Shown piece by piece: positions 35,929-39,900 of a stretch of DNA of 64,000 bases (its first letter is position 1; each line of letters opens with the position of its first letter). The translations under genes and the position numbers were made by a program. The notes under the pieces are model-generated. The model did no database searches, was not told the origin of the DNA, and saw only the letters and a program-made list of their open reading frames with translations. Source of the stretch: Williamsia muralis NBRC 105860 (lineage in GTDB: Bacteria; Actinomycetota; Actinomycetes; Mycobacteriales; Mycobacteriaceae); the NCBI RefSeq assembly GCF_001598915.1, contig NZ_BDAP01000003.1, positions 124,001 through 188,000 of the forward strand. The letters are read 5' to 3'.

Positions 35929-36031
35929 CAGAAGACATGAGCACACCGTGAAGTTCTTGCGATGAGCACGTTTCGGACGTAGACCGAGGTCGTAGCGGGC
36001 AATGCCGCTCGACCTCCAAGTGAGGAGAGCA

Positions 36032-38956
36032 GTGGCAGGCAAGGCCCGCGTGCACGAATTGGCCAAAGAACTGGGCGTGACGAGTAAAGAAGTACTCGCC
36101 CGACTCAGCGAACAAGGCGAGTTCGTCAAATCAGCGTCGTCGACCGTAGAGGCCCCCGTGGCCCGGCGACTTCGCCAGTCCTTCCCCGGGAAGGACGCTC
36201 CCGCCGCCAACGGTGGAGCACCGTCATCAAACGCCGGAGGCAGCGCCCCGGCAGCAAAACCATCAGCAGCCAAGCCGGGTGCCGCGCGCACCCCGGCTCC
36301 TTCAGCGCCGGCACCGAGCGGTTCGGCTCCGGCCGCGCCGTCGACCGGCGCAAAGCCTGGCGCCCCGCGCCCGGCGGCTCCCGCAGCCAAGGCGACACCG
36401 GCAGCACCCCCGGCGCCCCCGGCAGCAACTCCGGCCCCGCAGAACCGGCCCGCTCCCCAGCGTCCGGCACCGGCGGCTCCTCAGGCTCCCGCAGCATCGG
36501 CAGCCTCCGCGACCCCGCCTGCGGCTCCTTCCCGTCCGGCTCCGGCCGCACGGCCGGCCGCTCCGGGCCCCAAGCCCGGTCCGCGTGCGCCGCGGGTCGG
36601 TAACAACCCTTATTCGACGGCCGCTCCGGTCGAGCGTCCGGCGCCACGTCCGGCACCCGGCGCGGGCGGTCCCCGTCCCGGCGGCGGCCAGCGCCCCGCA
36701 CCCGGCGGCGCGACCGGCGGACGCCCGGCACCGGGTCAGGGCGGTCCCCGTCCCAGCCCCGGCAGCATGCCTCCTCGTCCCAATCCCGGTGCCATGCCGG
36801 CTCGTTCGGCCCGCCCAGGCGGTCCGGGCGGACCCGGCGGAGCACGCGGCGGTCCCGGTGGCGCACGTGGCGGACCCGGCGGTGCCGGTGGTGCCCGCGG
36901 CGGTCCCGGTGGCGGCGGCGGTGGATACCGCGGCGGTCCCGGCGGCGGTGGCGGCGGAGCCCCGACAGGTGCTCCCGGTGGTCCTCCCGGTGGGTTCCGC
37001 GGACGCCCGGGTGGTGGCGGTCGTGGACGCGGCGGCGGCGCAGCCGGTGCCTTCGGTCGCCCGGGCGGTGCAGTCCGTCGTGGTCGCAAGTCGAAGCGGG
37101 CGAAACGCGCCGAGTACGAGAGCATGCAGGCTCCCGCAGTCGGCGGCGTGCGGTTGCCACGTGGCAACGGCGAGACCATTCGCCTTGCTCGCGGTGCATC
37201 GCTGTCCGACTTCGCCGACAAGATCGACGCGAACCCGGCAGCACTGGTGCAGGCGCTCTTCAATCTCGGTGAGATGGTCACGGCCACCGAATCGGTGAAC
37301 GACGAGACGCTCGAGCTGCTCGGCGGCGAGATGAACTACGTCGTGCAGGTCGTCAGTCCTGAAGACGAAGATCGCGAACTGCTCGACTCCTTCGACCTCA
37401 CCTACGGCGAAGACGCCGGTGGCGAGGACGATCTCGAGCAACGTCCGCCGGTGGTGACCGTCATGGGTCACGTCGACCACGGTAAGACGCGACTGCTCGA
37501 CACGATCCGTAACGAGAAGGTCCGCGAAGGCGAGGCCGGTGGCATCACCCAGCACATCGGTGCCTACCAGGTCCTCACCGAACTGGACGGCAACGAGCGG
37601 CTGGTCACCTTCATCGACACCCCGGGTCACGAGGCGTTCACCGCCATGCGTGCCCGTGGTGCCAAGGCCACCGACATCGCGATCCTCGTGGTCGCGGCCG
37701 ACGACGGTGTCATGCCGCAGACGGTCGAGGCCATCAACCACGCACAGGCGGCCGACGTGCCGATCGTCGTGGCGGTCAACAAGATCGACAAGGAAGGTGC
37801 TGATCCGCAGAAGATCCGCGCTCAGCTCACCGAATACGGTCTGGTTGCCGAGGACTTCGGCGGCGACACCATGTTCGTCGACATCTCCGCCAAGCAGGGC
37901 ACCAACATCGACGCGCTGCTCGAAGCAGTTCTGTTGACCGCGGATGCCTCACTCGACCTTCGGGCGAACCCGGACATGGACGCGCAGGGTGTGGCCATCG
38001 AGGCCCACCTCGACCGCGGCCGCGGCCCGGTGGCAACCGTGCTCGTGCAGCGCGGAACGCTCAAGGTCGGCGACTCGATCGTCGCCGGAGACGCCTACGG
38101 TCGTGTCCGACGGATGGTCGACGAGCACGGCGCCGATGTCACGGCGGCTCTGCCGTCGCGCCCGGTCCAGGTCATCGGTTTCACCTCGGTGCCCGGTGCA
38201 GGCGACAACCTGCTGGTCGTCGACGAAGACCGCATCGCCCGCCAGATCGCCGATCGCCGCAATGCGCGCAAGCGCAATGCGCTGGCCGCACGCAGCCGCA
38301 AGCGGATCAGCCTCGAAGATCTCGATTCGGCTCTGAAGGAGACTTCGCAGCTGAACCTGATCCTCAAGGGCGACAACTCGGGAACCGTGGAAGCGCTCGA
38401 AGAAGCGCTGCTCGGTATCGAGATCGACGACGAGGTGCAGTTGCGGGTCATCGACCGCGGTGTCGGTGGCGTCACTGAGACCAACGTGAACCTGGCCTCG
38501 GCATCGAACGCGATCATCATTGGGTTCAACGTCCGTGCCGAGGGCAAGGCAACCGAACTCGCGAACCGCGAGGGTGTCGACATCCGGTACTACTCGGTGA
38601 TCTACCAGGCCATCGACGAGATCCAGAGCGCGCTCAAGGGCATGCTCAAGCCGATCTACGAAGAGGTCGAACTGGGTCGGGCCGACATCCGTGCGATCTT
38701 CCGTTCGTCGAAGGTCGGCAACATCGCGGGTTGTCTGGTCACATCGGGCATCATGCGCCGGAACGCCAAGGCACGTCTGCTGCGCGACAACGTCGTGGTC
38801 GCCGAGAACCTCACCATCTCCTCACTCAAGCGCGAGAAGGACGATGTCACCGAGGTCCGCGACGGCTACGAATGCGGTCTCACGATCACGTACAACGACA
38901 TCAAGGTCGACGACGTCATCGAAACGTACGAGTTGCGGGAGAAGGCACGCGAATGA
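36032..38956 (+). CDS. infB: Translation initiation factor IF-2
   Basis: GTPase that brings initiator tRNA to the 30S subunit. 974 residues from the GTG at 36032 with GAGGAG just upstream, giving the usual [15 protein letters not shown] opening. After the IF2_N domain comes a very long Pro/Ala-rich then Gly/Arg-rich linker (about 56-350). The G domain has G-H-V-D-H-G-K-T from residue 479, D-T-P-G-H-E and N-K-I-D; domains II-IV follow. The last 19 residues are repeated in a short ORF immediately downstream. Confidence 0.97.
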
Positions 38957-39024
38957 CGTCGGCGACGGACATCAAGGTCGACGACGTCATCGAGACGTAC
39001 GAGTTGAGGGAGAAGGCCCGGGAG
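38897..39024 (+). repeat. Tandem repeat of the infB 3' end
   Basis: Copy 1 is 38897-38953 (end of infB, without its stop) and copy 2 is 38968-39024, separated by 14 bp. Identity is 52 of 57 bases. Changes are GAA/GAG, CGG/AGG, GCA/GCC, CGC/CGG and GAA/GAG, clustered toward the 3' end. The protein reading is unchanged. Confidence 0.9.
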
Positions 39025-39027
39025 TAA
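38953..39027 (+). CDS. 24-codon ORF duplicating the IF-2 C-terminus
   Basis: An ATG at 38953 overlaps the infB stop in ATGA and opens a 24-codon frame: M-T-S-A-T followed by [19 protein letters not shown] and TAA. Those 19 residues are identical to IF-2 residues 956-974. The two 57-bp coding copies differ at 5 bases, all synonymous. It may be a translated micro-ORF, or the scar of a duplication or recombination with a diverged infB. No function can be assigned, and expression is unproven. Confidence 0.45.
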
Positions 39028-39044
39028 TCCCGGACCAGGACGTC

Positions 39045-39338
39045 ATGTTTGTCGGCTCCCTGGAGATCGACCTACTGCTCGGAGACGTCCGGTCCCTGAA
39101 GCAGAAGCGCTCAGTGGTGCGGCCAATCGTCGCATCACTGGCGCGTCTGCGGGTTTCGGTCGCCGAGGTCGACGACCGCGATCTGCACCGCAGGGCGCGG
39201 ATCGGGGTCGCGGCAGTCGCCACCGATTCCCGGCACATCGGTGAAATACTCGATGCCAGTGAAGATCTGGTCATGCAGCGGCCTGAGGTCGAAGTGTTGT
39301 CCGTCCGGCGCAGAATCCGCAGCAGCGACGACGACTGA
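39045..39338 (+). CDS. ylxP: YlxP-like DUF503 protein
   Basis: A 97-residue member of DUF503: M-F-V-G-S-L-E-I-D-L-L-L-G-D-V-R-S-L-K-Q-K-R-S-V-V-R-P-I and V-A-E-V-D at the expected places. Such genes commonly sit between infB and rbfA; function is unknown. The ATG at 39045 has AGGA 4 nt upstream. In this genome the gene is separated from infB by the duplicated micro-ORF. Confidence 0.87.
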   Translation: MFVGSLEIDLLLGDVRSLKQKRSVVRPIVASLARLRVSVAEVDDRDLHRRARIGVAAVATDSRHIGEILDASEDLVMQRPEVEVLSVRRRIRSSDDD

Positions 39339-39411: not shown

Positions 39412-39900
39412 ATGGCAGACCCCGCACGGGCACAGCGGTTGGCGAAGCGGATCTCATCGATTGTCGCCACGGCCATCGCCAAGGAGATCAAGGATCCCCG
39501 GCTGGCCTACATCACGGTCACGGACGCGAAGGTGACCGGCGATCTACACGATGCAACAATTTTCTACACGGTGATGGGTCCGTCGCTCGACGAAGAACCC
39601 GATTACGCGGCGGCGGCAGCCGGTCTGGCCAAGGCGACCGGCATCCTGCGGTCGAAGGTCGGAGCCGGAACAGGCGTCCGCTTCACCCCGACACTGAGCT
39701 TTGTGTTGGACAAGGTGCCCGACACCGCACGTGATCTCGAAGAGCTACTCGAGCGTGCCCGCCAGCAGGACGAGGAAGTCGCCCGGCTGGCCCGCGATGC
39801 CGCCCCGGCCGGCGACCCGGACCCCTACAAGGAACCGGCCCGGGCCGATGGTGATCCCGGCGACGAAGGTGCGGGTACTGCGGGTGCCGGCGAAAGGTGA
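39412..39900 (+). CDS. rbfA: 30S ribosome-binding factor A
   Basis: Cold-shock and 30S maturation factor with a KH-like fold. 162 residues: [29 protein letters not shown], and [10 protein letters not shown] are family signatures. The last 35 residues are an acidic, Pro/Gly-rich tail. AGGAG is well placed upstream. Its stop overlaps the nrnA GTG start by 4 nt. Confidence 0.95.

Follow-up and report, generated by a model that had tools for sequence, protein, structure and literature searches.

Directly behind infB in Williamsia muralis NBRC 105860 lies a reading frame of 24 codons that begins within the infB stop and repeats the final 19 residues of IF-2. The question raised by this locus is where the second tail came from, and whether it is kept for its peptide, for its RNA or for neither. 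We analyzed the locus in a window of 64,000 nucleotides (the whole stretch of DNA that was analysed; its genome is G000) and at the infB ends of related genomes. It is likely that the feature is a minisatellite of the gene tail, born by template switching, which forms overlapping micro-ORFs.

The repeat at the end of infB

The elements of the locus, all on the + strand, are as follows.

36002–38956, +: infB, encoding IF-2 of 984 aa (open reading frame list; Pfam IF-2, IF2_N, GTP_EFTU and GTP_EFTU_D2); its stop TGA is at 38954–38956 (open reading frame list and sequence)
38897–38953, +: tail copy 1, the final 19 IF-2 residues and parent of the repeat (direct repeat, sequence)
38953–39027, +: micro-ORF of 24 codons with stop TAA, overlapping the infB stop by 4 nt (ATGA; open reading frame list, sequence)
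38953–38966, +: inverted arm ATGACGTCGGCGAC, holding the micro-ORF ATG and the infB TGA (inverted repeats; spacer-tail complementarity, 93% to the tail centre)
38968–39024, +: tail copy 2, identical to copy 1 at 52 of 57 positions (direct repeat; 5 of 5 differences synonymous)
38977–38990, +: 3′ hairpin arm GTCGACGACGTCAT within tail copy 2, with the loop at 38967–38976 (inverted repeat; fold)
39045–39338, +: ylxP (Pfam DUF503, E 2.5e-27), starting 17 nt past the micro-ORF stop
39412–39900, +: rbfA, the next gene in the same direction (Pfam RBFA, E 6e-26)

The two tail copies are offset by 71 bp and differ in the codon pairs GAA/GAG, CGG/AGG, GCA/GCC, CGC/CGG and GAA/GAG, five differences that are all synonymous. 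An earlier note on this DNA had described both an ATGA-started 24-codon ORF repeating the IF-2 end and 57-bp copies with five synonymous changes, and codon-by-codon comparison of the tails confirmed this. The tail's GTCGACGACGTCAT, once reverse-complemented, differs from the inverted arm at one base: over 14 nt, positions 38953–38966 are 93% complementary both to 38977–38990 and to 38906–38919.

The list produced for the window by Tandem Repeats Finder does not contain the infB-tail array, and a separate ungapped scan was therefore used as a control. It covered 464 kb of the window's genome (20 stretches of 20 kb plus the window) with a threshold of 42 identical bases in 50 at a distance of 40–160. 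Four places reached this threshold. The repeat is not attributed to chance because it alone among the four copies the coding 3′ end of a gene. A 161-bp query of the region matched a single place in the whole genome of G000 (E ≤ 0.001), and Rfam gave no match at gathering score between positions 38000 and 40000 of the window. The ylxP frame is also open for about 350 nt upstream, across both tail copies, giving a mechanical ORF of 215 aa (38691–39338).

Copy number in related genomes

The infB-tail feature is a 71-bp tandem repeat that varies in copy number among Williamsia genomes. In a comparison between species covering nine genomes, a single tail copy was found in G002, G004 and G007, two copies in G000, G001 and G003, and three in G005, G006 and G008, spaced in 71-bp steps throughout. 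In the infB tree, which is built on a single gene and has several weak nodes, G000 with its two copies is close to the three-copy genomes G005, G006 and G008. Short-read assembly may have collapsed three copies into the two of the window, given that the close relative G006 has identical copies 1 and 2.

In a second genus (g9; probably Gordonia) the tails of all 59 genomes were read, and units were found in six of them: three tails in G411, two in G243, a decayed second tail in G165, and one diverged unit each in G205, G379 and G348. The remaining 53, like the three single-copy Williamsia, have no recognisable unit; 41 of these 53 were tested for a tail remnant with none flagged at 0.01, and the other 12 have less than 20 nt to the next gene. 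Among genomes with one tail and 20 nt or more before the next gene, each compared with its own tail, a tail-like remnant was found in 0 of 53 (0.01 against shuffles), and 16 more have shorter intervals. Two tails are present in two of seven readable genomes of a further genus (G025 and G062; an eighth, G066, was left out of the count because its contig stops exactly at the repeat start) and in G023, the one genome representing its genus. The tail motif recovered 56 tails in 125 loci. Eight of the 56 were flagged, all in the Williamsia, g9, G025 or G023 groups, and a family-wide search of 401 genomes yielded no additional full-length case among the matches listed. The alignment of this junction in relatives, which the earlier note had proposed, thus gives one to three copies in nine Williamsia and units in three further genera. 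By eye, GAACTGAGAGAGAAGGCTCGCGAG behind tail copy 2 of G023 (L008) resembles the remnant of a decayed third tail.

An assembly artefact might be suspected here: short-read assemblies can miscount identical short repeats, and the G066 contig breaks at this very place. We regard it as extremely improbable, given that the right-hand junction is the same in four genera, with one case lying within a 5.25-Mb contig (G006), and that point changes separate the copies in most arrays.

Likeness of the spacer to the inverted tail

The spacer between copies is 14–24 nt long. In all eight lineages it is near to the reverse complement of the lineage's own tail, each score being reached by at most 1 in 2000 base shuffles. 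Scores of spacers with their own tails sum to 101, a total that no reshuffling of the spacers between lineages exceeds (equalled in a fraction of 0.0012; mean 87.9), and the spacer tracks lineage-specific tail bases in G023, G025, G062 and G411. The G001/G003 spacer fits the GAT variant of single-copy Williamsia better than the present tail (13 vs 11). Inverted scores range from 11 to 17 and direct scores from 7 to 12, both being 11 in G001/G003; spacers also resemble the tail directly because the tail centre is partly palindromic.

In G379, one of the genomes with a diverged g9 unit, 0 of 2000 shuffles equalled the agreement between the 5′ arm and the reverse-complemented infB tail of that genome; for its own unit, likewise reverse-complemented, the fraction was 0.0010. 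For G205 the values were 0.0010 against its own infB tail and 0.127, which is not significant, against its own unit; for G348 the match was at chance level with its own unit (0.59) and weak with its own tail (0.023). The mark of a template switch, a nearby stretch copied in inverted orientation at the junction, was found in 8 of 8 lineages and in G379, and is weak or absent in G205 and G348. A near-inverted spacer that follows changes of the tail reads as a template-switch signature. The inverted arm starts with ATGAC, which is what GTCAT, from the Val-Ile codons of the tail, becomes on the opposite strand. The ATGA comes from this inverted GTCAT, and the overlap between infB and the micro-ORF can therefore be a by-product.

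Simple tandem duplication was considered as well. The spacer of the window is unlike the bases before copy 1 and those after the last copy, and a plain slip was rejected on these grounds.

A second tail would also be left by recombination with a diverged infB allele, as the earlier note had suggested, or by an element that integrated and was then lost. Scars of elements or alleles at gene 3′ ends are known, and this precedent, together with the second, slightly diverged tail that follows the gene, speaks for such an event. The extra copies, however, bear the host's own tail variants (ES in G023, II...QEKART in G025, QEKPRD in G411), the spacer is similar to the tail itself in inverted orientation, arrays of as many as three regular units occur, and a large insert between copies is absent from the genomes read. 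We set a foreign allele or element scar aside as very improbable, on the grounds that the copies follow the host tail and the spacer its inverted form.

Hairpin of the repeat unit

Positions 38950–38994 of the window fold with −21.7 kcal/mol (z −3.57 against dinucleotide shuffles); the hairpin of G243 has z −4.13 against shuffles of the same kind. Against base shuffles, z lies between −2.7 and −6.6 in every unit but that of G165 (15 of 16). Unit 3 of G006 has a single nonsynonymous difference, GAC to GCC (Asp to Ala), which pairs the one mismatch of the hairpin, and this hairpin reaches −27.0 kcal/mol, whereas the six remaining units of the clade lie between −18.8 and −20.1 kcal/mol. The change fits the hairpin arm at a cost to the peptide, as template switching between the arms of inverted repeats does in yeast (PMC8604942).

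Between infB and rbfA, many single-tail g9 genomes (e.g. L162, L168 and L176) have, by eye, an inverted repeat like CTCCCCTTCC...GGAAGGGGAG, which is possibly an attenuator.

Micro-ORFs and possible translational coupling

An ATG, GTG or TTG at −4, in an ATGA, GTGA or TTGA overlap with the preceding stop, is followed by an open frame in 8 of 9 Williamsia units, and in this genus the final micro-ORF stop lies 17–19 nt ahead of ylxP. Units of G001, G062 and G411 have no ATG, GTG or TTG start, and that of G165 stops early. Selection on start codons at the NTGA junction was considered and given little weight: any change away from C yields a start. In G205, G379 and G348 the peptide has diverged over its N-terminal two thirds; these units keep TGATG overlaps at both ends, with infB and with rbfA. 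Frames are intact in 11 of 12 units near the next gene, the three diverged ones included, vs 3 of 7 among those with 91 nt or more to that gene (P 0.038, a value that ignores the non-independence of units within genome and lineage). This contrast is a hint of selection for coupling. The frames may be kept for coupling, or be intact simply because some copies are young.

Judged from these overlaps, translation of the micro-ORF by coupling is plausible. In two other species, six gene pairs had lost nearly all coupling once their distance reached about 20 nt (PMC10666635). For this reason ylxP, with a gap of 17–19 nt, may be weakly coupled even without the unit.

Gene order behind infB differs between groups. 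The gene next to infB is rbfA, with no room for ylxP in between, in G023, G025, G014 and those genomes of g9 and g18 that were read; in Williamsia and in 6 of 7 outgroup genomes read it is ylxP. The YlxP encoded in the record NZ_JNYV01000001.1 (L046), which bears the name Kitasatospora arboriphila NRRL B-24581, shares 99% identity with that of the window; the record is probably a mislabelled or contaminated Williamsia assembly.

It could be argued that the hairpin, the coupled micro-ORF or both form a selected RNA-level device, which sets the translation of ylxP or rbfA or protects or attenuates the mRNA, with the peptide irrelevant. Folding stability in all units but that of G165, covariation of the arms, the location of the window's AUG in the 5′ arm, frames that are intact mostly where the next gene is near, and the overlaps retained at both ends of the three diverged units are all consistent with such a device. 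Template switching by itself can, however, make and keep such arms, and the presence of units is scattered on the tree. Three units, in two genomes whose next gene is distant, are startless, and the distance of about 20 nt at which coupling is almost lost (PMC10666635) is close to the gap of 17–19 nt before ylxP, which single-copy relatives share. On balance we consider a selected RNA device unlikely.

Differences between copies

Within a genome, the first and last copies differ at a mean of 2.4 of 57 positions, vs 8.9 for first copies between lineages (seven lineages). Both copies of G025, both of G062, copies 1 and 2 of G411 and the same pair in G006 are identical. Copy 2 of G062 and copy 2 of G411 equal copy 1, yet have no in-frame ATG, GTG or TTG start; the case of G062 demonstrates that identity does not require translation.

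Nonsynonymous differences from copy 1 occur in 7 of 16 extra copies, the decayed G165 included, although in G003 the change may have occurred in copy 1. The 15 units without G165 have 29 synonymous and 8 nonsynonymous raw differences, several of the changes being counted in more than one genome, where random change would yield 21–28% synonymous (neutral share 0.21–0.28). Many of these changes, however, fell in copy 1, which IF-2 constrains. Polarised onto the extra copies, by hand reading against single-copy relatives, there are about 8 synonymous and about 8 nonsynonymous changes. This is above the neutral share (P 0.008 to 0.05 from the binomial, the one part that was computed), and so mild an excess can come from homogenisation from copy 1. 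The window, at 5 synonymous to 0 nonsynonymous, is the extreme of the extra-copy set. Overall, constraint on infB together with homogenisation accounts better for the predominance of synonymous differences than selection on the peptide does; a weak constraint on the peptide of the extra copies may act as well.

The possibility that the peptide is translated and selected, for example as a decoy of the IF-2 C2 tail, draws on its exact identity in the window, on the raw excess of 29 to 8 and on the start and open frame of 8 of 9 Williamsia units. To this can be added a stretch coding for YETVEKAR, identical in the diverged units of G205 and G379; all 16 bases at which these two units differ, on the other hand, are in nonsynonymous codons. 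Further points against selection of the peptide are the share of units with nonsynonymous differences (with the reservation made for G003), the startless units of G001, G062 and G411, the early stop in G165, and the 53 of 59 g9 and 3 of 9 Williamsia genomes that do without a recognisable unit. Moreover, aligned to 1d1n, the piece covers just the end of the last IF-2 domain and is unlikely to fold on its own. A selected peptide is, on this evidence, quite improbable. Of the proposal in the earlier note, coupled translation thus survives as plausible, with 8 of 9 Williamsia units open. A conserved peptide is poorly supported, in view of the nonsynonymous changes, the startless identical copies of G062 and G411 and the N-terminal divergence in three g9 genomes, and the foreign allele is unsupported. 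A relative with a disrupted second copy, which the note had named as evidence against its reading, was found in G165.

Origin of the repeat

The proposed origin by template switching would proceed as follows. During replication the template switch would take place at the quasi-palindromic infB tail (GTCGACGACGTCAT): copying would reach the end of infB, jump so as to copy the tail centre backwards, return upstream and copy the whole tail, leaving tail, inverted arm and tail. Through its near-identical direct copies the array would later grow or shrink by whole units, and these copies would homogenise each other; further template switching would have that effect on the hairpin arms. Selection on IF-2 would keep copy 1 clean, and its synonymous changes, being shared or spread, would make the extra copies look protein-constrained. 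With the ATGA brought by the inverted arm, each unit would potentially be an overlapping micro-ORF from birth. By letting ribosomes continue from infB towards ylxP, the micro-ORF could make the insert tolerable in the operon, in a MIRU-like manner. The structure would then probably be largely non-adaptive, and the peptide a by-product rather than a functional molecule.

Copy-number variation, identity of the inverted arm, covariation with the tail, similarity within genomes and the mostly open frames appear in the sequences themselves. From them we infer the template-switch mechanism, homogenisation and actual translation and coupling. Precedents for the switching steps are found in two sources, one describing how template switching homogenises the arms of inverted repeats in yeast (PMC8604942) and the other how it creates hairpins in RNA genes (PMC8794818).

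The number of such events is less certain. The right-hand junction ACGGACATC (CCGGACATC in G023) is common to 8 of 8 lineages, although no copy 1 has this codon in front of it. A common junction without a local template favours one old origin and argues against a recent event where single-copy sisters occur, such as G122. By parsimony on the tree, a single origin needs 25 losses vs 9 changes at equal cost, or 18 vs 8 without the diverged clade, and it becomes cheaper once one gain costs about five losses. Repeated origins, or a single ancient one followed by many losses, would account for the distribution. Long persistence of a loss-prone repeat could reflect selection.

A bolder version would be that the infB 3′ end spawned a self-renewing cassette of hairpin and coupled micro-ORF, older than the split of Williamsia from its sister genera, whose copy number tunes ribosome passage from infB to ylxP or rbfA. 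We judge it rather unlikely. If true, it would show MIRU-like coupled repeats arising from ordinary gene sequence.

Relation to known systems

MIRUs, the mycobacterial interspersed repetitive units, are spread over the genome. One source describes them as short gene-adjacent repeats, apparently mobile, with an ORF coupled to the next gene at −4 nt, an arrangement that likely lessens the effect of insertion (PMC12548453). The senX3-regX3 MIRU has 77-bp units, three identical ones of 77 bp in H37Rv and two of 77 bp plus one of 53 bp in CDC1551 (PMC4213456). The infB-tail unit resembles MIRUs in its −4 overlap, present in 8 of 9 Williamsia units, and in its variable tandem number (1 to 3 in nine Williamsia genomes, whereas MIRU variation is between strains). 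It differs in occupying one genomic place in G000, as located by the 161-bp query, rather than being interspersed, and in copying the upstream gene's own tail with an inverted arm resembling that tail. Judged by these features, the infB-tail repeat is MIRU-like in operation but no MIRU, set apart by its single location and its origin from the host gene.

With template-switch (quasipalindrome) mutations, as described in PMC8604942 and PMC8794818, it shares the inverted copy from a nearby template and the homogenised arms; the infB product differs by adding a full direct copy of the gene tail, a variable copy number and a coupled ORF. With termination-reinitiation gene pairs it shares the same ATGA and TGATG overlaps (PMC6728339 and PMC10666635), while the infB micro-ORF repeats, in 24 codons, a piece of the gene upstream of it and is no independent gene. 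Searches of an open-access library turned up no earlier description of the infB-tail repeat.

The infB case illustrates how a duplicate with synonymous changes only is open to misreading, since shared constraint and homogenisation can mimic selection on a peptide. A way in which coupled tandem repeats like MIRUs may be born is suggested as well: an inverted coding GTCAT brings the ATGA, and an insert in an operon may spare translation. The locus is compact, found in several genera and easy to type.

Elsewhere in the window's genome (contig C1, L248:9519–9881), about 4.5 copies of 80 bp lie right behind a gene stop, outside long ORFs. This array carries TTCCTCCGGTTGCAACCGGAGG-like inverted repeats and is, by eye, unlike the infB tail.
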